A stretch of 64,000 nucleotides of DNA, from IMG/VR virus record IMGVR_UViG_3300035180_002250, positions 62,001 through 126,000 of that record. One strand, 5' to 3'. Origin of the DNA: a virus. This document shows positions 9,999 through 39,768 of this stretch, in pieces. The position numbers were made by a program, and so were the translations under genes. Numbering within the stretch: the stretch's first letter is position 1; each line of letters starts with the position of its first letter. A model generated the notes under the pieces. That model made no database searches. It was not told the DNA's origin and saw nothing but the letters and a program-made list of their open reading frames with translations.

Positions 9999-11222
9999 CT
10001 ATTCAAACAAATCTAAAACCTTCCTTTTTTTAAAATAATTATATAATTTACGGTTAGCTTTCTTTTCAATGGTGAAAACCCAGACCTTGGTAGCCTTGTG
10101 ACCATTTGATTTAAGTATGTCAGCAATCTGCAGCAGCGTTTTCGGAGTTGAATCGTGCAATCCATACCGCAAATTGATTATCAGTTTTTCCTTTTCAGTA
10201 AGGACCGTTGGATTGTTCAAAGCTTCACGTAACATTCGAAGTTTCTCTTTACAGATATAATCGTCATCAACACATTTGGGAGTCAATGCATCCGGAATAT
10301 TTTGTAAAACGATATTATTGGATAGGTTGATATTTGTTGTATAATCGTCATCGATGTCATACGAAGAAGTATCGTCAGACTCATTGTTACTGCTGTTAGG
10401 TGTTCTACGCTGTGCGTAGTAGTATTTGGTACTTTGGGACACTGGTTTTCTTCCACGTTTTTTATGTGCCCTACTGGGTACTGATAACTCTGCTTTTGTT
10501 TTGATTGTATTATGTTTAATATCATCTACACTGATAGCATCTTCATCTTCTACAGTGGATGTTAAAGAATCAGTATAAATAACAGAAGACTCCGGGTCCA
10601 CAAAGTATTCATTTGATTCTAGGCTGTCATCTTCGGTCATTGAATTCTCAAGATCAGCTTTCACATCCTCCCGAAGATGATTCAACCGGAGATAAACCAT
10701 CTTCTTATAGTTGGTTGTGGTGGGAACTCTTATCAGTGATTCAGACCTAAGCGTAGTAGATACAGCCTCCTTGATATACCCCGTAATATACGAAGTAAAC
10801 TTCGTTTCTCGTGAAAGATCGAATTTATCAATAGCTTTGGAAATTGTGATTACAAGATTTTGCAAAGCATCCTCAAAAATATCTCCTTTTTTAAATTTAT
10901 AAGAAGTTAACACATACGGGAATAAGTACCATAAATTAATAATAATACACTGTCGATAAAAGATTCTATCATCTTCCGACAGAGTTGTATTGGTATGATA
11001 TTCTTTCAGCCATTCATGTATCTTGGCTGTCCGCTCCTTGGAATTCTGGAAAAATGGCAAATTGGAGCAAGTAAGATGTCGTGAAATGAGTTTAACAGAA
11101 TCTAACACGGTATAGGATGGAGGCAAATGACTTGAATAACTTTTGGGATCACATGAGGATCGTGCAGCATCTGAATTTGAAGAAAGTGTTGAGGGTGAAT
11201 CAGAAGTACACAGTTGTACCAT
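9999..11222 (-). CDS. Sigma-70-like transcription factor (first copy)
   Basis: A 407-residue sigma-like protein. Region 2 is recognisable in FEDALQNLVITISKAIDKFD with the aromatic/basic stretch KFTSYITGYIKEAVSTTLR; region 4 is TEKEKLIINLRYGLHD followed by a helix-turn-helix (LLQIADILKSNGHKATKVWV). The middle (about residues 190-300) is acidic and low-complexity. I choose the ATG at 11222 because AAAGGTG lies just upstream. A longer frame starting from GTG at 11309 would be translated from the adjacent TnpB-element right end and is unlikely to be the native start. Family role: directs RNA polymerase to promoters. With the second factor at 37789 it probably defines the two promoter classes seen here. 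Confidence 0.8.
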   Translation of the reverse strand: MVQLCTSDSPSTLSSNSDAARSSCDPKSYSSHLPPSYTVLDSVKLISRHLTCSNLPFFQNSKERTAKIHEWLKEYHTNTTLSEDDRIFYRQCIIINLWYLFPYVLTSYKFKKGDIFEDALQNLVITISKAIDKFDLSRETKFTSYITGYIKEAVSTTLRSESLIRVPTTTNYKKMVYLRLNHLREDVKADLENSMTEDDSLESNEYFVDPESSVIYTDSLTSTVEDEDAISVDDIKHNTIKTKAELSVPSRAHKKRGRKPVSQSTKYYYAQRRTPNSSNNESDDTSSYDIDDDYTTNINLSNNIVLQNIPDALTPKCVDDDYICKEKLRMLREALNNPTVLTEKEKLIINLRYGLHDSTPKTLLQIADILKSNGHKATKVWVFTIEKKANRKLYNYFKKRKVLDLFE

Positions 11223-11265
11223 AGGGGCACCTTTCTGAATTAAAGTATTGATTAATTTCGATAGG

Positions 11266-11359
11266 TTGACACTCCCGACGGCTAAAGCCAGGGGATTCTC
11301 AGGCAACACCGGCTATTGTCTGTGTTAGCGCCTGAACCCTCTGCCCGAGGGCTTTAATA
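11266..11359 (-). ncRNA. Right-end/omegaRNA core of TnpB copy 1
   Basis: A segment covering the last codons of tnpB and the right-end hairpin is nearly identical in all five copies of the element in this window, including three that lack tnpB. In IS200/IS605 elements the tnpB 3' end and right end encode the omegaRNA (reRNA), whose guide is read from the flank. The flank here would give a guide beginning CCTATCGAAATTAATCAATA. RNA function is inferred from the family. Confidence 0.6.
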
Positions 11360-12423
11360 TTTATAGCAGCATTGAGGTCTCTATCGAGGGTTACACAACA
11401 AGTAGGACAATAGTGAACCCTAACAGATAACGTTTTAGGAACTAATGTACCACACTGTGAGCAATTCTGACTAGTATTGCGTGGGTTAACCTTGATGATC
11501 TGACGACCAGCTTCCTCCGCTTTGTACGTCAGACAATCAAAGAAAGTTCTCCATGCCACATCAGAAATACTCTTGGCAAGGTGTCTGTTTTTCACCATGT
11601 TGCGAATGTTCAAGTCTTCAACATAGATTTCATTATACTTCGCAATATAATAATTGGCTGTTTTATGTGCAAAATCATACCGTTGATTGACTATCTTCTC
11701 GTGTGCTTTTGCTAACAGAATACGAGCTTCTTTCCGATTCTGAGAGCCTTTCTTTTTGCGCGCCAGACTGCGGCTCCTGCGTCGGATAAGCCTAGCACCT
11801 TGTCTAAGAAACCTTGGATTTTCAACGGTATGATCATCTGAGTCTTTGCAAAAATATTTCAGTCCAACGTCGATTCCTACTGCATCAGTAACTTCGGGAA
11901 ACGCACGTGCAGGAACATGATCGCAGGAAAAGCATACGAACCATTTACCAGTAGACATCCTGCGAACAGTCACAGTCTTAATAGAACCATCTATAGGTCT
12001 GGATAGAAACAACTTGAATCTTCCAACCCCTTTCACATAGAGATATCTGCCTTCAATACGCCATCCTGCCTGAGTCAGAGTGAAGGAATCATATCTAGTA
12101 AAAGACTTAAACCGTGGGAATCCAGCTTTGGCATTTCCAGCTTTGACACGTCTAAAGAACCCACGAAATGCCTTATCAAGGCGATTTATCACATCCTGAA
12201 GTACTTGTGCTCCCACAGTTCTATATTCAGGAAAGGCATCTTTTAGAGCTGGCAGCTCTTTCATTTGCTGCCAAGCAGAAAGAGACACTCGGCACCTGCT
12301 GTAGGCATCTATCCTTTGCTCAAGAGCAGCATTGTACAGCCTGCAGCATAAAGACAGCCACTGGTTACAGGCTGCCTCAGTTGATTTCGTGATCTTAGCT
12401 TTGTATTTGTAAGTTCTTCGCAT
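11299..12423 (-). CDS. tnpB: TnpB RNA-guided nuclease, copy 1
   Basis: A 374-residue TnpB with the whole RuvC-like triad: D185 (GIDVGLKYF), E269 (YVEDLNI) and D349 (LDRDLNAAIN). The zinc finger is C321-C324 (CSQC) and C339-C342 (CPTC). The N-terminal wedge region begins MRRTYKYKAKITK. Family knowledge: TnpB is an omegaRNA-guided DNA endonuclease, ancestral to Cas12, that cuts at a site next to a short TAM and helps the element persist. The protein is about 95 percent identical by eye to copy 2. All motifs are intact, so the gene looks functional although its element has lost its left end. The upstream spacer carries an extra GCGTTCTT duplication compared with copy 2. Confidence 0.92.
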   Translation of the reverse strand: MRRTYKYKAKITKSTEAACNQWLSLCCRLYNAALEQRIDAYSRCRVSLSAWQQMKELPALKDAFPEYRTVGAQVLQDVINRLDKAFRGFFRRVKAGNAKAGFPRFKSFTRYDSFTLTQAGWRIEGRYLYVKGVGRFKLFLSRPIDGSIKTVTVRRMSTGKWFVCFSCDHVPARAFPEVTDAVGIDVGLKYFCKDSDDHTVENPRFLRQGARLIRRRSRSLARKKKGSQNRKEARILLAKAHEKIVNQRYDFAHKTANYYIAKYNEIYVEDLNIRNMVKNRHLAKSISDVAWRTFFDCLTYKAEEAGRQIIKVNPRNTSQNCSQCGTLVPKTLSVRVHYCPTCCVTLDRDLNAAINIKALGQRVQALTQTIAGVA

Positions 12424-24176: not shown

Positions 24177-25793
24177 TCAGGTGAACACCAGGGTATCCTC
24201 GGTGTTCACCTCGTGAGTCATAGTAAAATTTATAGCTCCCATTAACACTCTAGCCCCAAACCAGCCAAACACCATCGAATGCAACACATCATCGGATTTC
24301 TTAGGATGATGCCTCCAAGCTCTTCTAGAAATACCCCGGTCTTCGTTCAAAAAAACTTCTTTAACATTTAATAAATCCTGACCAAATGGTTTGAAATCTT
24401 CATATCTGAAACACCTTATTTTTTTAGTCTTTATATCTAACAAAAAACTATCGATCAGAATAGTCCTATTAACGATAAATCTGGCTCCTGAGGCGTCCCA
24501 ACGAAATGGTGCTGACTGCTCTGTGTACATCACAGGTACTACCTGTTTATCCGGAAGCATCGTGTGCAACTGGCTCATGGCGAAATTACCATTTCCATGA
24601 TCCCCGTAAATAGCTGATACGTTGAAAACCCTGCACAACCTGGCAATATCAACAACATGCTGCGAAGGCTCACCGGCTGAATACACCCTACAAAATATTT
24701 TTATCATTTCTCCTGAATTTGGGTACACCGAGTAAATTGATATAGCGGTTCTACTGACACCATCCATTCCGGAACCTCCCCAATCTATACCTGCAACGAT
24801 ATACTCAGCCCCCTTTGTATTCTCTGGTGCAGCATGGTCCAACATCTTCAAAGTAGGTATACACATCTCCTGCAACAGTTCCTCAGTAATCAACTGAGAC
24901 CCCTCCCCTGTTGGCTCTCCCATTACTTCGTTATCGAACCTTGATGTAGGGTATGAAGTAAACTTATCCCATAGCCTGCGCCATTTATCCGGGTTGTTAC
25001 AATGCATGGGCATGATAATCTGCGGTATCGCATATCCGTCACAGGTTTTATCGTTTGCATCTCCAGTGCATGTCGGATACCATTTACCCAAGTAAGTATT
25101 CAATTTTTTACCACATGATTTGCAAACAAATCCTTCCTTGGTAATATTTTTTTTATCAGGTATATTATACTTATTACATCCTTCACACTTGATTACCCAT
25201 CGTTTCTGCGTTGACAAATCCCAAAAATATTCCAATGAAGTTATTAATGTTTTAGAAGTTCCGGCATATACAAATGTTGGATTCTTGGAAGCTGATAAAC
25301 ACTCTTCTGCATCCAGGATAGCGTCAAACAAGATATCCTGAATTTCATCGAGGTATAATTTATTTCCACTAAAACCTCGTACACGATCTGCTGATTCACT
25401 GAAATAACTCAATCGTATTTCTGAAAAATTTGCAAAACGTTTATTAAAAATATTATTAATGCAGTGCTTTGATCGCATTAAATTTGAATAAACAACAGGA
25501 GAGTGAATAAGGAAAGGGTCCAACTTGGAAGTTGAGAATGCCGCCGTTTGCGCTCCGGAAGCATTCACATAGATAAGAGAATTATAGGGGGTTATTATGG
25601 ACTCTATTACCATACTGGACGCCATGGTAATCGTTTTAGACACCTGACGCCCTGCCCGCATTACACACCGATCATACTGTGTGTTAAATATGTCCTGAAA
25701 CATTAAATAATCAGCTAAAGAATATGGTGCTCCCTGTAGACGCAATATCTGTTGGGCAATATCTGATTTTGTTAAGTCTGTTGCAATTTCCAT
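24177..25793 (-). CDS. Terminase large subunit
   Basis: The packaging ATPase/nuclease, about 538 residues. Walker A-like RAGRQVSKT lies at about residues 46-54 and Walker B LYLDEIQD at about 147-154. A zinc ribbon follows (CEGCNKY ... CKSCGKK plus two more Cys), and the RNase H-like nuclease has its first Asp in AGIDWGGSG (about 338) with later acidic residues GDHGN and KKSDD. Role: recognises DNA, drives it into the head through the portal and cuts it. Start: ATG at 25793 directly after a TTG; no good ribosome site is seen, so coupling to the upstream gene is likely. No small subunit was recognised nearby. Confidence 0.92.
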   Translation of the reverse strand: MEIATDLTKSDIAQQILRLQGAPYSLADYLMFQDIFNTQYDRCVMRAGRQVSKTITMASSMVIESIITPYNSLIYVNASGAQTAAFSTSKLDPFLIHSPVVYSNLMRSKHCINNIFNKRFANFSEIRLSYFSESADRVRGFSGNKLYLDEIQDILFDAILDAEECLSASKNPTFVYAGTSKTLITSLEYFWDLSTQKRWVIKCEGCNKYNIPDKKNITKEGFVCKSCGKKLNTYLGKWYPTCTGDANDKTCDGYAIPQIIMPMHCNNPDKWRRLWDKFTSYPTSRFDNEVMGEPTGEGSQLITEELLQEMCIPTLKMLDHAAPENTKGAEYIVAGIDWGGSGMDGVSRTAISIYSVYPNSGEMIKIFCRVYSAGEPSQHVVDIARLCRVFNVSAIYGDHGNGNFAMSQLHTMLPDKQVVPVMYTEQSAPFRWDASGARFIVNRTILIDSFLLDIKTKKIRCFRYEDFKPFGQDLLNVKEVFLNEDRGISRRAWRHHPKKSDDVLHSMVFGWFGARVLMGAINFTMTHEVNTEDTLVFT

Positions 25794-25815
25794 CAATATT
25801 AAAATTATTCATTTT

Positions 25816-26505
25816 TTAGTGTACTATTGGATTGTATAAGTAACACCCGATTAACTGAACCAATATCTTCTTGAATGAACTATCATACTCATTGGAATTG
25901 AAATACTTTTGATTCAAATTCTCCAGCACTTCGATTGAGTCATCCTTATTCGTAAAATCCACAGTATCCAATAAATCAGCCATTTTCAACAAATCTTCCA
26001 TTGGGTATGTGGTTTGAGTCACTTTCAAATGCGTTAACAATTCTTGCCCAGAGCGTAACGGTTTAGGTAACACAACCCAATCATAATAAGCTGCACATGA
26101 AGCAATATACCCAGGTATTTCACCTAGAGTTGTAACAAACTTCGTATCATGCAGTAATAAAGATAATTTATCCAAATTAGTTACAGAATAAAAAATCTCT
26201 TCAATGTGACTTGGCGTAACTGTATTATGTGCACCACAGTTACAAAAAGAGCTAACAACATTAGAAAATGGGAGGCAATAATTACTCGCCACATCCATAT
26301 TTCCACAAACTCCCCAAATAGCTAATAATTTAGCCATAGCCACATTGGTAGTAACTTTTTTAAAATTCCCCAAAAATACTTCCGGCTCCCAATTCAACCA
26401 GTCTGAATTGGCAAAAATATCTATCTTATTTAGATATAAAAAAATATCAATAGGGTGATTATTGAGTACAAATTCATTAGTAATTGTTGATGGATCAATC
26501 CCCAT
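25816..26505 (-). CDS. Hypothetical protein, 229 aa
   Basis: An unrecognised protein encoded between terminase and a virion-like gene. Its start overlaps the preceding stop (TAATG), so the genes are coupled. It contains FCNCGAHNT, a possible Cys/His metal site, and several helical segments; no P-loop or membrane helix. Position next to terminase could suit a packaging or head-associated role, for example a small-terminase equivalent, but sequence does not show it. Confidence 0.65.
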   Translation of the reverse strand: MGIDPSTITNEFVLNNHPIDIFLYLNKIDIFANSDWLNWEPEVFLGNFKKVTTNVAMAKLLAIWGVCGNMDVASNYCLPFSNVVSSFCNCGAHNTVTPSHIEEIFYSVTNLDKLSLLLHDTKFVTTLGEIPGYIASCAAYYDWVVLPKPLRSGQELLTHLKVTQTTYPMEDLLKMADLLDTVDFTNKDDSIEVLENLNQKYFNSNEYDSSFKKILVQLIGCYLYNPIVH

Positions 26506-27641
26506 TATTCACGAATCCCCAAGCTGTACAGTGTAGTTGCAAGTTTTGTAATGTCTCCATCCTTCTCAATCAATGATAAAGCGTCCTCCCCATACTTACC
26601 GACAATATCCCCTTGTGGCATGCTTTTCAATTTTTCAATAAACCGTTCAAGGTCTTTATCATTATAATCAAAATCTCGATTACTTTTTTCGTTTTTAGTA
26701 TCCATCATCTTTTTATTCTTTACTCTCTTACTATTTACAGATGCTTCCTTATTAAATACAATACTATAAGCACACGGTATTTTATTTGTGTACTTTTTAT
26801 CATTCAAATTATATTTTTCATCAATATTATATATAACTTCAGCAAGTTTTTTCAGTTCATTCTTGGTATAAATTTCAGAAGAATCTTCTGTGGCACTTCC
26901 TAATTTATCCAATCCTGAAATCAGTGTTTTGTACTCATCACCGGATTTTCCCATACGATTGGCGACAGCAACACGATATTCCAACATCCGTTTCGTATTC
27001 TCCAGATCACTATCTACAAGAGCTGCATACTTCACAATACTTGGTGAGTACGGTCCTCTGTACCCAAACTTACCAGCCAAATCGATAAACCGAGTAGAAT
27101 ACTCCACCCGATCCGGTACTGATAGTCTGGAGTATTGGTCATCAAACACTTTATTTGCCTCAAGAAGGTCTTCCGCCGATGCAACCTTGCATAATCGCTG
27201 TTTAGGTAACAGGTACTCCTCCCCACCGGATTCTTTTAAGGTAGATGCACATTTTTCAATTCCTGGTGTTGGTGACATAAACAACCCCTCAGGAACATTA
27301 TATAAATCTAAATAACTGTCCAATGTTTCAGCTATTTTCGTATACACATCACTCGGGAATTTATCCTTCTGCCCGGATAAGTATACCTTACTGATAATAG
27401 CATCTTCCATAGACCCTACTGAAAACTTAACTTCCTCGGGCCAAGCATACATATTTTCAGTAGCCAACTTTTGGTGGGGCTCCTCGGTGATACCAGCTCC
27501 ATTACTGGTGTAACTGGCTAAAACAGCACCAAGTACCTTCTGAACATTCTTTGGGTATGCTGATGCAAACTTAATAAAATTCTTTTGGCTTCGATCAGAG
27601 TTAATATCAACAATTCGGCTCTTCCAGTGTTTATTATTCAT
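26505..27641 (-). CDS. Probable head-associated protein with repeated K-x-A motifs, 379 aa
   Basis: Unrecognised by family. I place the start at the ATG at 27641 (AGGTGAGATAATT upstream) rather than at 27671. The protein carries at least six short motifs of the form K-x-A-S/T/A (IKFASA, EKCAST, CKVASA, VKYAAL, NKEASV, TKLATT), the same kind seen in the capsid N-terminus, scaffold and prohead protease of this phage. That suggests it is packaged in, or processed in, the prohead. The C-terminal third is highly charged with a KKMMDTKNEKSN linker. A role as an internal head or core protein is inferred. Confidence 0.65.
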   Translation of the reverse strand: MNNKHWKSRIVDINSDRSQKNFIKFASAYPKNVQKVLGAVLASYTSNGAGITEEPHQKLATENMYAWPEEVKFSVGSMEDAIISKVYLSGQKDKFPSDVYTKIAETLDSYLDLYNVPEGLFMSPTPGIEKCASTLKESGGEEYLLPKQRLCKVASAEDLLEANKVFDDQYSRLSVPDRVEYSTRFIDLAGKFGYRGPYSPSIVKYAALVDSDLENTKRMLEYRVAVANRMGKSGDEYKTLISGLDKLGSATEDSSEIYTKNELKKLAEVIYNIDEKYNLNDKKYTNKIPCAYSIVFNKEASVNSKRVKNKKMMDTKNEKSNRDFDYNDKDLERFIEKLKSMPQGDIVGKYGEDALSLIEKDGDITKLATTLYSLGIRE

Positions 27642-27739
27642 AATTATCTCACCTAAATAGTTATGCTCCATGTCACAGTTAAACTCCTTACTACATAGTA
27701 TTGGTAGTCGTACTTATTTATTACAAATCTCCTGATATA

Positions 27740-27751
27740 TAATAAATAATG
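27740..27751 (-). promoter_or_regulatory. Putative late-type promoter, near-consensus CATTATTTATTA
   Basis: Minus-strand CATTATTTATTA differs in one base from the motif at 5089, 38594 and 50067. It lies about 100 bases before the 27641 start and would drive the terminase unit. Confidence 0.4.
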
Positions 27752-27794
27752 AAAACAAACATCTGTATTTTTAATAAAATAAAAACAGTGTTTC

Positions 27795-27803
27795 TGTTAT
27801 AAG
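27795..27803 (+). promoter_or_regulatory. Putative extended -10 promoter TGTTATAAG
   Basis: Fourth occurrence of the motif, 74 bases before the start of the gene that leads the reverse-transcriptase unit. Confidence 0.55.
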
Positions 27804-27876
27804 TATACGCCAAGTGACTCAGTTCTTCTATTTATTTATTAAGTCCATAATTTTTTTAATTGAAAGGAAAAGAAAC

Positions 27877-28677
27877 ATGATCCCAATAAGTGACTATAGT
27901 AAGATTACAGCCGTTGAGGAAACAACAACCCCACCTGAGGTCAGCAAACTATTTTCAAGTATTAATAGTGAGCTTCAGGTAGATGTACACAAAGTATTAA
28001 AATTTATAAAAATTGAAAATATGAGTACAAGGGGGGTCAAAACTTATAAGTATTTAATTCTAGTCAACAAAGTTAACTACTCAGATATTATACAACAAAA
28101 AATAAAAGAAATTTATAAAAACGCTGCACTAGTGAAAATAGAGACTAATAATGTAATTAATAAGCTATGTAAAAAGACAACCATTACAAATGACAACATA
28201 GCAAAATTATATACCTATCTACTTGAGTATTACATGTTGATACCTCTGGACACAAGTTTTAAAAATTATAACAGAGTTATTGACTATACCCTTAAATGGG
28301 TAATTGATACTAATAACTCATCAACACAACGTAACCCTGTAAGTATCTATATAATTAACTTATGGGTAGATGGTAAAAATATTAATACACAGTACTGCGG
28401 AATAGAGCACAGACTGTGCTATAGTGAAATACCTTATAAGTTTAGGAGAATGAATCAAACAATCCCACCATTGACTATGAATAGTTCCCAGACAATTGAA
28501 CAAACATTGTATGATGAGCTATTAACAAATGCATACCCTTTTTATAAAAAAGTATATGATGTAACAAAAACCTACAACCTATATAATAAATTACAGGTTG
28601 TTAAACAAATTTCCGATGAGTCACGCTTTCTTAAAACGGACATGAGTAATAGCACAAATGAGCTTGTTGCCTTCTAA
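27877..28677 (+). CDS. Hypothetical protein upstream of the reverse transcriptase, 266 aa
   Basis: Unrecognised. The start is the ATG at 27877, which has GAAAGGAAAAGAAAC upstream; an earlier in-frame start at 27814 has no such site. The sequence is rich in Ile, Tyr, Asn and Lys, with long helical stretches and no enzyme motif. It ends 15 bases before the reverse transcriptase gene, which has its own ribosome site (AAGGAGGGAATT). The tight pairing after a shared promoter suggests the two products work together, possibly as partner or substrate-binding protein; this is inference from position only. Confidence 0.65.
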   Translation: MIPISDYSKITAVEETTTPPEVSKLFSSINSELQVDVHKVLKFIKIENMSTRGVKTYKYLILVNKVNYSDIIQQKIKEIYKNAALVKIETNNVINKLCKKTTITNDNIAKLYTYLLEYYMLIPLDTSFKNYNRVIDYTLKWVIDTNNSSTQRNPVSIYIINLWVDGKNINTQYCGIEHRLCYSEIPYKFRRMNQTIPPLTMNSSQTIEQTLYDELLTNAYPFYKKVYDVTKTYNLYNKLQVVKQISDESRFLKTDMSNSTNELVAF

Positions 28678-28692
28678 AGGAGGGAATTCGTA

Positions 28693-30006
28693 ATGCAAAA
28701 TCAAACTAGTGTATATAAAGTTAAAGAAGTTGATGTAGCTGAAGAAGAACTTATAAACGCAAACAACTCTATTCCTGTGATCGCAAACAACTTCCAGGAT
28801 TTGCACACTCTATTAGGAGTGAAAACAAACCTTATCTCTTATTACTATAATAAAAGAGACAAACACCAAACTTTGGTAAAAGTTGGAAAACGTGAGACCT
28901 ATAATTCAGCATACGGATTAAAACTGATCCAGAAGAAAATGATATATAAGATTTTTGAACCGATGTTAAATATAACGCCAAACGATCATATGCTTGCGTA
29001 TATAAAAGGAAGAAATTTCTATACCAAGCTAAAAGAAGACTGCACAAAACATGACTACATTGTAAAATTTGATCTCAAAAAGTATTACGATTCAATAACA
29101 AAAAAGCATATCGTAGATACTATTGAAAGTTTCGGTGTGCCCCATAAAGCGGCAAAGTTAATCTCCCATTACTGCGTAGTGAAAAGGGTAATAACAAAGA
29201 AGGATGGAACCACCAAAACGGTGGAAACTTTACAACAAGGCAGCCCTTGCAGCCCTATTATTGCAAACTTAGTAGGGTATAAATATATTGATGCACCTCT
29301 AATGCAGTATATTAAGGAGAACCTACCAGGGTACAGATACGAGTATATACGATTTTCTGATAACGTACTTCTCTGTTTAACAGCGCCAAACGACGGAAAC
29401 GTAGTAGATACTGAGAAAGATGAGAAAACACGGCAGGCCATCACCAAGTACCTAAACGCTGCCCATACCATTCTTGGTAACGGGTATTTCCGATATCATG
29501 ATGTAGACGTGACAAGTAAGAAACATCCAAAGAAACACCAAAAATTTCTAGGTGTGATCCTAAATGAAGTGGCCCGTATAGATTTGAAAATTTTCAGAAG
29601 ACTACGAGCAACCCTGTTCAACTGCCTGAAGGGAGACATACTGTCTGAGGCAAAAAAATATTTCAGAGAAGAAACGGACTTCCACTTCGAAGACACAAAC
29701 CAATGCTTTCTGGTTACAGATGAGGATATTATCAAAAAATTCTTCCAGGTGATGACCGGAAAGATTGCGTACATTAAGCAGGTAAGTTCCAAGCAGTATA
29801 CGGAACTGTATAACATGTTGGCTTTAGTAAAACTGATACATAAAGAATATTCAAGAATATTTGAAACCTCCAGACATAGGGAAAATGATGGCAGATTAAA
29901 AGAATATTTGTTCGATATAGTAAAGAATTACAAAAATTATGAAGAAGTTGTTACACAGCTAACTCTGTTAGAATCTCCTGCAGTCTATGCTGAAGAGACA
30001 ACTTAA
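28693..30006 (+). CDS. Reverse transcriptase, retron-like, with FSDN active site
   Basis: A 437-residue reverse transcriptase. Palm motif A is KFDLKKYYDSI (D127), motif B is QQGSPCSPIIANLV (about 181-194), and the usual YxDD box is replaced by RFSDN (FSDN 221-224), so the second Asp is Asn. Motif D/E-like KFLGVILN resembles the retron VTGLVVN segment, and the N-terminal LGVKTNLISYYY resembles retron RT0. The QGSPxSP form excludes the DGR type (SQ). No msr-msd-like RNA is evident upstream. Possible roles are antiviral or superinfection exclusion, or an untemplated polymerase. The D-to-N change may alter metal use or weaken catalysis. Confidence 0.85.
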   Translation: MQNQTSVYKVKEVDVAEEELINANNSIPVIANNFQDLHTLLGVKTNLISYYYNKRDKHQTLVKVGKRETYNSAYGLKLIQKKMIYKIFEPMLNITPNDHMLAYIKGRNFYTKLKEDCTKHDYIVKFDLKKYYDSITKKHIVDTIESFGVPHKAAKLISHYCVVKRVITKKDGTTKTVETLQQGSPCSPIIANLVGYKYIDAPLMQYIKENLPGYRYEYIRFSDNVLLCLTAPNDGNVVDTEKDEKTRQAITKYLNAAHTILGNGYFRYHDVDVTSKKHPKKHQKFLGVILNEVARIDLKIFRRLRATLFNCLKGDILSEAKKYFREETDFHFEDTNQCFLVTDEDIIKKFFQVMTGKIAYIKQVSSKQYTELYNMLALVKLIHKEYSRIFETSRHRENDGRLKEYLFDIVKNYKNYEEVVTQLTLLESPAVYAEETT

Positions 30007-30054
30007 TCATACAAGATTTAGAAAAATGAAAAATATTAATTAAAACAACTGGGA

Positions 30055-30099
30055 TTTGTGTGCATTATATTATAAAAAAATTAACATAATGCACACAAA
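30055..30099 (+). promoter_or_regulatory. Hairpin covering the ribosome site of the 30108 gene
   Basis: TTTGTGTGCATTAT pairs perfectly with ATAATGCACACAAA (14 bp). The last bases of the 3' arm belong to AAAGG, the only ribosome-site-like sequence before the ATG at 30108. Folding would hide it, so translational control is plausible. It may also act as a weak terminator after the reverse transcriptase gene. Confidence 0.5.
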
Positions 30100-30107
30100 G
30101 GCCCCTT

Positions 30108-30458
30108 ATGCCAAAAAATATATCCCCAACTTTAACAGACCTCGATAGCATATCGACAGATATTAGTAACCAATTAGTTCCAAAAGAACCATGTCATAAG
30201 TGTGGTAAAACTAGGTGGGTAATAGATGATGATCCGTACACCTGGGTTTGCCTGAATTGCAATAACTTAATAATGTTAAACTATGGCAAACTTATTCAAC
30301 AAATAGATATAATATATAGCAATCCAGTAAGACGTAACGACTATGTAAAATCTATAAAATCAGGGACTATAAAACTTAAAAAGAAAGATGATATAAAACA
30401 AATTAAATTTGATAAATACCTAAAAGATATCAGAGAAGGTAAAAACAATGCCAGATAA
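30108..30458 (+). CDS. Zinc-ribbon protein, 116 aa
   Basis: A small protein with a two-part zinc ribbon, CHKCGK (about residues 34-39) and CLNCNN (about 54-59), separated by a Trp-containing strand pair. The C-terminal half is very Lys-rich and helical, suitable for nucleic-acid binding. The gene overlaps the RuvC-type gene by 11 bases. The ribosome site is partly inside the hairpin at 30055-30099. Family unknown; a transcription or recombination accessory is possible. Confidence 0.65.
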   Translation: MPKNISPTLTDLDSISTDISNQLVPKEPCHKCGKTRWVIDDDPYTWVCLNCNNLIMLNYGKLIQQIDIIYSNPVRRNDYVKSIKSGTIKLKKKDDIKQIKFDKYLKDIREGKNNAR

Positions 30459-31158
30459 CTATATTTTTTTAGGTATAGACCCTTCAATAAAAAACACTGG
30501 ATTATGCATTTTAAAAATAATTAATAATTCTATTATTATATCTTTATATGATATTTCCAACTATACTAAAATACCAAAAGATAAAATAAAAAGGTACACA
30601 GTAATATCAAATAGCGTGAAAAATATCTTAGCTACTGAAATAGGCAGTTTGGATAATTTTAATTTATTTATAGGGTATGAAGATTATTCTTACCATAGTA
30701 CTAATAAATCATTTTCACTTGGTGAACTTGGTGGGTGCCTTAAAACTACTATAATATCTTATCAAGAAACAAATGCTAACCATATACTACAAAGTGAATT
30801 ACTGTTAGTACCTCCAACAAAATTAAAACAATTTGCTACAGGTACTGGAACTGCAACAAAATCAATGATGATTAACGCTTTTCTTAATACAGTTAATTTA
30901 AATTTACTTAACCATACAAATAAAAATAGCATTGCTATTTTATACAACAGCAATGCTATTACTGAAAGTACAAACTTTACCAATAATACTATTGGTGTCA
31001 CCGATGACTGTGCCGATGCCTATTTTTTAGCTGAATTTTCTTATATAAACTATGTATCTAACAATTCCTCATCCCCAGATTCCAGTACTCGGTATACTGT
31101 GGCTCATCTTAGAAATAAAGTTAACGTCGTTGTCCCAACTGATCCCCTATTCCTCTAA
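30448..31158 (+). CDS. RuvC-like Holliday junction resolvase
   Basis: A 236-residue RNase H-fold endonuclease. Catalytic acids are visible in GIDPSIKNTGL (first Asp, about residue 9), IGYEDYSY (Glu, about 74) and GVTDDCADAYFLAEF (last Asp pair, about 190). The order and spacing match RuvC and its phage relatives, which resolve branched DNA before packaging. The segment between the second and third acids is longer than in RuvC. The C-terminal tail is Ser-rich. It follows the zinc-ribbon gene by overlap, and its 3' end overlaps the converging gene at 31147 by 12 bases. Confidence 0.8.
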   Translation: MPDNYIFLGIDPSIKNTGLCILKIINNSIIISLYDISNYTKIPKDKIKRYTVISNSVKNILATEIGSLDNFNLFIGYEDYSYHSTNKSFSLGELGGCLKTTIISYQETNANHILQSELLLVPPTKLKQFATGTGTATKSMMINAFLNTVNLNLLNHTNKNSIAILYNSNAITESTNFTNNTIGVTDDCADAYFLAEFSYINYVSNNSSSPDSSTRYTVAHLRNKVNVVVPTDPLFL

Positions 31159-31579
31159 TAAATCTCCTTTAAGGATCGTATATGGTCCAGCATCATGTAC
31201 ACCACTGTTCTTTAGCTCATGTTGTACCAATTTCTCATCCATTTCTGTAATCTTATTTTCCACTAATGATACTATTGAACGTAAATTATCATACATTCCC
31301 TTGGTACTACCATAAACTAATAATGATTGTGGTGTATCAACTACCTGTTTCTGATTAACTACTACTGTAGTAAGGGGGTAATACAGTATTAGTAGAACTG
31401 TTGTCTAATTCGGGTATTCCCAAGTTTAAATTAGTATCTGCCCCACCATTTATTACTGCCATGGCAACATTATATACAATAGTACCATAATACGAAGATA
31501 TTTTTCCTTCGGTACATATGCTATTATAGTTTTCCAATAATAAGTTGTTTAATAGCAAACAAGGATTTATAGTACTCAT
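31147..31579 (-). pseudogene. Gene split by a +1 shift at a CCCCC run
   Basis: The minus-strand frame from ATG 31579 codes for 74 residues and stops at 31355. In the +1 frame, coding clearly goes on: VVVNQKQVVDTPQSLLVYGS and a charged helix (NKITEMDEKLVQH) up to GDLLEE and a stop at 31147. The two frames overlap at CCCCC (plus 31374-31378) in GTATTACCCCCTTAC. Removing one C would join them into a protein of about 143 residues. The second frame has no good start of its own near the junction. This is either a programmed +1 shift, a natural one-base mutation or a sequencing error. Product function is unknown; it follows the tail fibre gene. Confidence 0.6.
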
Positions 31580-31614
31580 AAATTTATCTACGCTCTCAAT
31601 ATTATTTATTATAT

Positions 31615-32286
31615 TTATGCTGCTACTTTAAACCAAATATCCCCATCAACTCCTCCGGATGGAGCAGACGTAGAAATCGTAAACCCTGAATGGTATGTAG
31701 AACTTAACACCTTATGCTGAGTAGGTGGAACTGATACGTTCGCAGTACCATCAAAATTAACACCATTTATTTGCCTTGCTGTTGTCAACTTGGATGCAGA
31801 GTATACATACTTATCAGCATCCCTTGTGTTATCAACATTTCCAAGACCAACCATTAACGCTGTAATACCACTTACATTACCTGTGAATGTGGGGCTATTT
31901 ACAGGAGCCTTGGTATTATCATAAATAGTAATATTGGCAGTACCATCAAAATTAACACCATTTATTTGCCTTGCAGTTGTAAGCTTAGTAGCAGATAATA
32001 CCTCTTTATTTACGTCTGCTGTGTTATCTACATTACCTAGCCCAACCATCGATGCTGTAATACCACTCACTGTACCTGTAAATGTAGGACTATTAATGGG
32101 TGCCTTTGTAGTCAATGACGATTGCACAGATTCAACTTGCGTCTTTAACCAAGTTGTTCTATTGGCTAACTGTCGCGGTTGAATATTTGCTACACCATCT
32201 GTACCCCCAGATACTCTGTCAGTAACCTCGATTAAATATACACCAGACTCCCACGTTGCCGATTCTGTTATAAAAGACATATACAC
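31615..32286 (-). CDS. Tail fibre protein with tandem repeats
   Basis: A 223-residue protein with two tandem repeats of about 57 residues. Each repeat has NSPTFTG, VGLGNVDNT and LTTARQINGVNFDGTAN, the sequence type common in tail fibres and in collar fibres of many phages. The C-terminal SAPSGGVDGDIWFKV is another typical fibre ending. Role: host recognition at the distal tail. The repeats are also visible as DNA repeats and could be a site of recombination between fibre genes. It comes at the 3' end of the baseplate operon. Confidence 0.85.
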   Translation of the reverse strand: MYMSFITESATWESGVYLIEVTDRVSGGTDGVANIQPRQLANRTTWLKTQVESVQSSLTTKAPINSPTFTGTVSGITASMVGLGNVDNTADVNKEVLSATKLTTARQINGVNFDGTANITIYDNTKAPVNSPTFTGNVSGITALMVGLGNVDNTRDADKYVYSASKLTTARQINGVNFDGTANVSVPPTQHKVLSSTYHSGFTISTSAPSGGVDGDIWFKVAA

Positions 32287-32345
32287 CTCACTATTAAAAT
32301 AATTGTATAAAATATATTACCATATAGACAAATCTCATACTAGAG

Positions 32346-32840
32346 TTATGCTGTATAAAATTTTATTGACCAAGCTCCAGAAAATGCCATATCGCTATTT
32401 TTTGTAATTGGACCATATACCCTCCTACTAAACAGACCATTACTTGTAGTAACTAACCCATATTCAGTTACAACAACTCCATTAATTTGCTCATATCCTA
32501 AATACCAATTAAATTTAACTGTAGATAAATCTGGGTATTCCACTGAAGTAAAGGGTAAATACGTAGGTGATGTAAGTGACATATCAGAAATATCAGCAGG
32601 GTCAGCACCCGTGCCCAATCCAATTTTTGTTATAGGTAACCCAGTACCACCTATTAAAGTTGCTAATATAGTTTTTGAATTAGCTACAATTAAATTGTGA
32701 TCAGTATATTCAGTTATCAACTTATTCTGCCTATCTAATATTCTTAAATAGAACATACCATCACATAGTGGTACTAAGTGTTTTTCATAGCATGTAATAC
32801 CACTTGTTGATTTCTGCTTTATACTCGTACAGTTATTCAT
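32346..32840 (-). CDS. Tail fibre/baseplate-associated protein
   Basis: A 164-residue protein. I start at the ATG at 32840, where AAGGGG lies six bases upstream; the in-frame start at 32864 is weaker. The segment ITKIGLGTGADPADISDMSL, followed by FTSVEYPD, FNWYLGYEQ, GVVVTEYGL and a final beta strand, is characteristic of small tail-fibre or baseplate beta-sandwich proteins found before fibre genes in Gram-positive phages. Role: probably fibre attachment or receptor binding. It lies between the 690-residue baseplate protein and the fibre gene. Confidence 0.7.
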   Translation of the reverse strand: MNNCTSIKQKSTSGITCYEKHLVPLCDGMFYLRILDRQNKLITEYTDHNLIVANSKTILATLIGGTGLPITKIGLGTGADPADISDMSLTSPTYLPFTSVEYPDLSTVKFNWYLGYEQINGVVVTEYGLVTTSNGLFSRRVYGPITKNSDMAFSGAWSIKFYTA

Positions 32841-38610: not shown

Positions 38611-38704
38611 TTGACACTCCACGAGGCTAAAGCCGGTGGATTCTCAGGCAACACCGGCTATTGTCGATGTTAGCGCCTGAACCCTCTGCCCGAGGGCTTT
38701 AATA
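38611..38704 (-). ncRNA. Right-end/omegaRNA core of TnpB copy 2
   Basis: Homologous to the cores at 11266, 55574, 57161 and 61375. It includes the tnpB 3' end and the right-end hairpin. The predicted guide is the flanking GTAATCATTATTTAATAGTC. RNA nature is inferred from the IS200/IS605 family. Confidence 0.6.
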
Positions 38705-39768
38705 TTTATAGCAGCATTGAGGTCTCTATCGAGTGTTACACCACAAGTAGGACAATAGTGAACCCTCACAGATAATGTTTTAGGAACTAATGCACCACAC
38801 TGTGAGCAATTCTGACTAGTCTTGCGTGGGTTAACCTTGGTGATCTGACGACCAGCTTCCTCCGCTTTGTACGTCAGACAATCAAAGAAAGTCCCCCATG
38901 CCGCATCAGAAATGCTCTTGGCAATGTGTCGATTTTTCACCATGTTGCGAATGTTCAAGTCTTCAACATAGATTTCATTGTACTTAGAAACATAATAATT
39001 GGCTGTTTTATGAGCAAAATCATACCTCTGATTGTACACCTTCTCATGTGCTTTTGCCAATAGAACCCTAGCTTCTTTCCGATTCTGCGATCCTTTCTTC
39101 TTTCGTGCAAGACTACGGCTCCTGCGTCGGATAAGATTAGACCCTTGTCTCAGGAACCTTGGGTTTTCAATGGTATGGTCATCTGAGTCTTTGCAAAAAT
39201 ATTTCAGTCCCACGTCAATACCGACTGCATCAGTAACTTCGGGAAACGCACGTGCAGGAACATGATCGCAGGAAAAGCATACAAACCATTTGCCAGTAGA
39301 CATCCTACAGACAGTCACAGTCTTAATAGAACCTTCTATAGGTCTGGATAGAAACAACTTGAATCTTCCAACCCCTTTCACATAGAGATATCTGCCTTCA
39401 AGCTTCCATCCTGCCTGAGTCAGAGTGAAGGAATCATATCTAGTAAAAGACTTAAACCGTGGGAATCCAGCTTTGGCATTTCCAGCTTTGACACGTCTAA
39501 AGAACCCACGAAATGCCTTATCAAGGCGATTTATCACATCCTGGAGTACTTGCGCTACAACAGTTTTATACTCAGGAAAGGCATCTTTTAGAGCTGGTAG
39601 CTCTTTCATTTGCTGCCAAGCAGAAAGAGACACTCGGCATCTGCTATAGGCGTCTATTTTTTGCTCAAGAGCAGCATTGTACAGCCTGCAGCATAAAGAT
39701 AGCCATTGATTACAGGCTACCTCAGTTGCTTTAGTGATCTTCGCTTTGTATTTGTAAGTTCTTCGCAT
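38644..39768 (-). CDS. tnpB: TnpB RNA-guided nuclease, copy 2
   Basis: A 374-residue TnpB with the same intact triad as copy 1 (GIDVGLKYF, YVEDLNI, LDRDLNAAIN). The zinc finger is CSQC ... CPTC followed by Gly here, where copy 1 has Cys. Differences from copy 1 are scattered substitutions, for example in SNLIRRR and VYNQRYD. The element keeps both ends, so this copy could still be mobilised by a TnpA supplied in trans. The gene could serve the three tnpB-less copies as well. Its orientation matches the late tail operon, so read-through transcription would express it late. Confidence 0.92.
   Translation of the reverse strand: MRRTYKYKAKITKATEVACNQWLSLCCRLYNAALEQKIDAYSRCRVSLSAWQQMKELPALKDAFPEYKTVVAQVLQDVINRLDKAFRGFFRRVKAGNAKAGFPRFKSFTRYDSFTLTQAGWKLEGRYLYVKGVGRFKLFLSRPIEGSIKTVTVCRMSTGKWFVCFSCDHVPARAFPEVTDAVGIDVGLKYFCKDSDDHTIENPRFLRQGSNLIRRRSRSLARKKKGSQNRKEARVLLAKAHEKVYNQRYDFAHKTANYYVSKYNEIYVEDLNIRNMVKNRHIAKSISDAAWGTFFDCLTYKAEEAGRQITKVNPRKTSQNCSQCGALVPKTLSVRVHYCPTCGVTLDRDLNAAINIKALGQRVQALTSTIAGVA

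Follow-up and report, generated by a model that had tools for sequence, protein, structure and literature searches.

The reverse transcriptases (RTs) closest to the gene described here are those of retrons. In retron types XI (RT-protease) and XII (RT-TIR), an RT with YADD at motif C and a VTG motif is accompanied by an adjoining protein gene. The retron RTs with solved structures, Ec86, Eco2 and Ec83, act with an upstream msr-msd RNA in host defence. Among retron-like RTs, NAxxH (region X) is present in 59% and VTG (region Y) in 47% (PMC4244168). Other bacterial RTs that are not mobile and are connected with phages, AbiA, AbiK, Abi-P2, DRT2 and DRT9, share the RT fold and are defence genes. 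Among RTs, the second motif C aspartate has been described as invariant (PMC3394715).

We analyzed a window of 64,000 nt, corresponding to positions 62,001-126,000 of IMG/VR record IMGVR_UViG_3300035180_002250, a linear record of 131,684 bases. A preliminary description of this DNA had noted an RT with normal palm motifs A and B and a metal-binding box reading FSDN, paired with a 266-residue gene. These readings were confirmed: the RT is a 437-aa RVT_1 protein with RFSDN at motif C, and its neighbour has 266 aa when counted from the ATG at 27877 (287 aa if read from an upstream GTG). The RT open reading frame (ORF) starts with ATG, and a strong Shine-Dalgarno sequence, AAAGGAGG, precedes it. 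The gene and its motifs are as follows.

28693..30006, + strand: retron-related RT, 437 aa (Pfam RVT_1, E=1.3e-12; 11-member family; best PDB match retron Ec86, E=1e-12)
29062..29097, + strand: RT motif A, VKFDLKKYYDSI (D127 and D133 invariant in the 11-member alignment)
29230..29256, + strand: RT motif B, LQQGSPCSP (LQQGS and the second S invariant in the 11-member alignment)
29350..29364, + strand: RT motif C, RFSDN (codons cga ttt tct gat aac; the Asn codon AAC is 29362-29364)
29545..29553, + strand: FLG at the place of the retron VTG, from alignments

The following features surround the gene.

24177..25796, - strand: terminase large subunit (TerL), landmark beside the RT module, used for the family search (phrog_675, 2.6e-52)
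27795..27803, + strand: candidate promoter motif of the lineage, TGTTATAAG, ahead of the partner and RT genes (at most one mismatch before the partner in 10 of 11 loci)
27877..28677, + strand: fast-evolving partner gene, 266 aa (each of the 11 members has a homolog 5′ of its RT)
30055..30099, + strand: hairpin after the RT stop, with a perfect 14-bp stem (all ten loci that could be tested have a stem at this position)
30108..30458, + strand: Zn-ribbon protein, 116 aa, usual downstream neighbour (homologs 3′ of the RT in most loci)
30448..31158, + strand: RuvC-like resolvase, usual downstream neighbour (phrog_159, 3e-17; homologs 3′ of the RT)

Queries with the window RT itself matched only distant retrons, and single-protein scans gave no new RT members, pointing to an orphan before the TerL-seeded scan. 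The window TerL found two contigs, L008 and L009. A scan with the resulting three-member TerL alignment returned eight contigs with TerL 49-58% identical, and each of the eight has an RT ortholog next to TerL, encoded on the other strand. L037 and L042 came from RT-profile scans, as did two genome contigs, L031 (Desulfovibrio piger) and L032 (Desulfovibrio sp. An276), the latter equal in length (64,287 bases) to IMG/VR contig L017. A ten-member TerL scan recovered the ten IMG/VR contigs already known and one at 28% identity, which had no RT in its examined stretch. The searched collection appears exhausted, because a later RT scan also returned the same ten IMG/VR contigs. As L014 and L018 give one and the same RT, there are 11 distinct members, window included, with 28-49% identity among them. 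A match in Staphylococcus phage SA 1306 Kay (L002, OR844994) was rejected as a member since it is an ordinary YADD retron RT. This record is unverified and unannotated, its RT has NAIPH and VTG, and it may be a bacterial sequence filed as phage.

In the alignment, all 11 distinct members had [F/Y][C/S]DN at motif C. Related RTs from 345 genomes of the host phylum and from plasmids, in contrast, had DD wherever motif C was recognised. From this alignment evidence, the asparagine at the second aspartate is not a chance substitution but the standard residue of the family. Positions invariant in all 11 were R67, D127, D133, LQQGS (Q182-G183), S187, R220, D223, N224, H269, P279, L286 and G287, and the motif B proline was missing in several members. 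The catalytic set was thereby kept in every member: the fingers arginine, the motif A aspartate, QG of motif B, the first aspartate of motif C and LG of motif E. In an AlphaFold2 model, with pLDDT >90 at motif C, residues 215-221 and 224-230 formed strands; D223-N224 thus occupy the turn of the hairpin that motif C makes.

In viral RNA-dependent RNA polymerases (RdRps), asparagine at the second motif C place allows the use of manganese (PMC4634563), and mutants of poliovirus RdRp and HIV RT at this aspartate had their activity restored with Mn2+ (PMC3394715). The polymerases of birnaviruses (ADN) and Mononegavirales (GDN) have asparagine at the same place and are active enzymes (PMC4634563, PMC3394715), but they are RdRps of RNA viruses with no close relation to the family, which makes this an analogy of chemistry only. 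The HIV RT double mutant D185N/D186N is inactive (PMC5498913), a comparison limited by the loss of the first aspartate there too. No RT paper on point for YADN or YxDN was found in the literature searched. Because the other catalytic positions are invariant, the family RT is likely an active DNA polymerase. Altered chemistry is plausible by analogy, and extrapolation from the viral polymerases suggests that the phage enzyme may lean to Mn2+.

Among the RTs compared, the family was nearest to retrons. The best PADLOC models for the window RT were retron types XI and XII (1e-30 and 2e-27), and all members matched both. The best PDB matches of the structure model were the RTs of retrons Ec86, Eco2 and Ec83, at 16-19% identity, followed by group II, G2L4, DRT2, DGR and Abi enzymes. 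Abi, DRT and UG RTs gave weaker PDB matches and lower-ranked PADLOC models than retrons. The preliminary description had proposed a phylogeny with retron, UG/DRT and Abi groups as a check. Our quick tree of 50 rows covered the retron part of this; its only references were retrons, group II and intron-like RTs and one DGR RT (BPP-1 Brt). All 11 members fell into a single clade (SH-aLRT 100). Its branch was long, its sister group was the sampled retrons (86), and it lay outside the known types, in a tree for which the tool warned of long branches. The family and the sampled retrons together were set apart from 18 intron-like RTs and BPP-1 Brt (99). The family thus lay outside the group II intron RT clade; a maturase domain or intron RNA was looked for through Pfam and Rfam only.

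The family RT shares its fingers-palm order and adjoining protein gene with types XI and XII. It differs from them in having [F/Y][C/S]DN for YADD and [F/L/V/A]LG for VTG, in having no fused protease or TIR domain, and in being a core gene of a phage lineage. At motif C it thus lacks the YxDD of retrons. In the alignments, NAxxH and VTG were in no family member, which is not decisive alone since many retron-like RTs are without them too. An Rfam search of 26500-32500 gave no match. The leader from promoter motif to partner measures about 72 nt in the window and no more than a few nt in L008. This leaves no room for an upstream msr-msd, unlike the loci of Ec86, Eco2 and Ec83; no msr features could be shown in the downstream hairpin. 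The view that this is not a classical retron was not refuted: neither placement within a known retron type nor a detectable msr-msd was found. The suggestion of a new group of phage-encoded RTs is well supported by the single clade, the constant asparagine, the synteny and the phage location.

The RT was present in all contigs found with TerL at least 49% identical, that is, in ten from IMG/VR and two from Desulfovibrio genomes. These contigs have a common order, with the RT beside TerL, the partner upstream and usually the Zn-ribbon and RuvC genes downstream. The TerL-seeded scans were blind to the RT and returned only RT-bearing contigs down to 49% TerL identity. More distant TerL relatives at about 30% (Salmonella phage Arash, Vibrio phage D181 and L019-L026) were without the RT in a second search that had ten positive controls, and for Arash and Vibrio phage D181 the absence extends over the whole record. 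A TerL-adjacent gene pair of Arash resembled the RT and its partner by size and was rejected, as the genes are not RTs. In this phage (L029, OQ632216), ThiF-like (E1) and JAB-like genes, read by eye, lie at 26285-29320 beside the terminase on the opposite strand; they are perhaps a phage ubiquitin-like system.

The RT and TerL trees agreed where supported, in the groupings (window, L042), (L015, L016) and (L008, L031). The last of these grouped with L009 and L017, with support of 100/99 in the TerL tree and 83/90 in the RT tree. Mean identity was 34% for the RT, 35-38% for RuvC, g229 and g388, 59% for TerL and 17% for the partner. The agreement of the trees, together with an RT identity near that of RuvC, g229 and g388, fits vertical inheritance with the phage. 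For the large Desulfovibrio-type phages of this lineage, the RT seems to be a regular component, neither a mutant nor a passenger gene.

The partner is much less conserved than the neighbours compared. BLASTP between two partners was blank, and they were linked through a profile only: a profile of eight sequences found the remaining three at 3e-6, 3e-5 and 0.0095. The partner had no Pfam match and matched no known effector family. Its structure model was poor (pLDDT 58.6), and a fold search with this model was empty.

An A-rich box lies upstream of TGTTATAAG in most loci, related contigs included. In the window, this motif has six sites, all on the + strand, compared with 1.2 expected; they include 5131, 12682, 22957, 27795 and 59002, and the one that is inside an opposite-strand gene is probably due to chance. 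Genes on the + strand include a helicase, two PD-(D/E)XK nucleases, a primase, a DNA polymerase and also a transglycosylase, whereas the structural genes are mostly on the - strand. Because TGTTATAAG sites share the + strand with replication genes, the RT is likely to belong to the early or middle expression class, an assignment drawn from the promoter motif alone. The window also encodes a sigma-70-type factor (10002-11309, - strand; Sigma70_r2, 7e-6; phrog_351, 1e-16), which may or may not read TGTTATAAG.

Within 100 nt of the RT stop, all ten testable loci had stems of 13-27 pairs with scores of 12.5-22.5, whereas 174 other genes of these phages had a median score of 7.5. For this difference, Mann-Whitney p=2.6e-7; as the loci are related, the p value is only a guide. 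The hairpin is conserved in position, but each locus has its own sequence there. Possible roles are those of a terminator, of a stabilising stem and of the working RNA of the RT.

The overall explanation that we prefer is a core retron-related RT of large Desulfovibrio-type phages, with asparagine for the second motif C aspartate and inherited with TerL, combined with five proposed steps; as a whole, we put its chance slightly below even. The enzyme would likely be active in DNA synthesis, and its asparagine would likely shift it to Mn2+ or to slower, altered catalysis. It would likely be expressed early, alongside replication and recombination genes. More doubtfully, it might act with the upstream partner, taking as template or primer the structured RNA encoded where its own gene ends. 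In the last and most speculative step, the DNA or RNP product might serve the infecting phage, either by a part in its replication and recombination or by countering a host defence faced by the fast-changing partner. Counted against this explanation are the small number of distinct members (only 11), the hairpins without a common sequence and the loss of the motif B proline in several members. The proposal in its sharpest form, of a separate RT group fixed in a phage lineage that would work for the virus by early DNA synthesis on the hairpin RNA behind its own gene, and not as defence, mobile element or tail diversifier, is tentative and, we think, somewhat unlikely.

The main rival is a phage-borne defence or superinfection exclusion of retron type, in which the partner would act as effector and the RT, together with a divergent ncRNA, as sensor, and the infected cell would be guarded against other phages. 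Retron RTs are the nearest relatives of the family, known retrons (L005, L076) can have an effector gene directly upstream, and the partner, at 17% identity against 34-59% for its neighbours, varies as would an arms-race protein. Against this reading, the module has one constant place and is present throughout the lineage, while phage defence genes usually vary in hotspots (PMC9122126). The RT is also without NAxxH and VTG, the short leaders leave no space for an upstream msr-msd, and the partner matched no known effector family; we regard this rival as unlikely. Still less probable is that polymerase activity has been lost, as marked by the asparagine, and that the RT persists in a complex with the partner, in a structural role or to bind nucleic acid. 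Substitutions at the second aspartate, described as invariant, often lower or abolish activity, and the motif B proline is gone in some members. However, inactivity would have left D127, D223, R67, QG and L286-G287 free to change, yet all are invariant at 28-49% identity, and the uniformity of the asparagine, without drift, suggests a working residue. The accessory structural role considered in the preliminary description found no support for the same reason: R67, the first aspartate in each of motifs A and C, QG and the primer-grip LG are kept as in a working polymerase.

The hairpin raises a separate question, for it could be a mere terminator or mRNA-stabilising stem while the RT takes its template elsewhere (mRNA, phage DNA or none). 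AbiK is described as an RT using no template. Stems scoring 12 are reached by 10% of the other genes of these phages, T-tracts follow about three of the ten hairpins (L040, L033 and L037), and no sequence is common to them; but a stem is present at all ten RT genes, and about seven are without a T-tract. We consider this reading evenly balanced. A DGR RT acting on a tail gene is hardly credible, even though the best known phage RTs are those of DGRs, BPP-1 Brt is likewise phage-encoded, and Desulfovibrio piger prophages carry DGRs (PMC12724379). Motif B of the family is QGS..SP, unlike that of Brt, no TR/VR or Avd was found, and the tree sets the family apart from Brt. The only direct repeat meeting window 24-34 kb, searched against record 42001-131684, was a duplication in the tail-fibre gene with unbiased mismatches. 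DGR was ruled out for that part of the record, as it held no TR/VR pair with adenine-specific differences, and the preliminary judgement that the RT is not of DGR type was borne out. The tail-fibre duplication is a tandem one of 177 nt (79%) at 31739-32110 of the window, its mismatches without adenine bias.

A natural and old RT clade with asparagine offers a direct test of the role of the second motif C aspartate, and an enzyme that differs in metal use or fidelity might come from the family. The family further suggests that, outside DGRs, an RT can belong to the standard genes of a DNA phage; no description of such a role was found in the literature searched. Elsewhere, the window carries two TnpB (IS605 OrfB) genes on the - strand, at 11302-12423 and 38647-39768. 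A structured repeat of 95 nt occurs in five copies, at 11264, 38609, 55573, 57159 and 61374, three of them without a listed adjoining TnpB; these repeats are possibly IS ends or omega-RNA-like elements.
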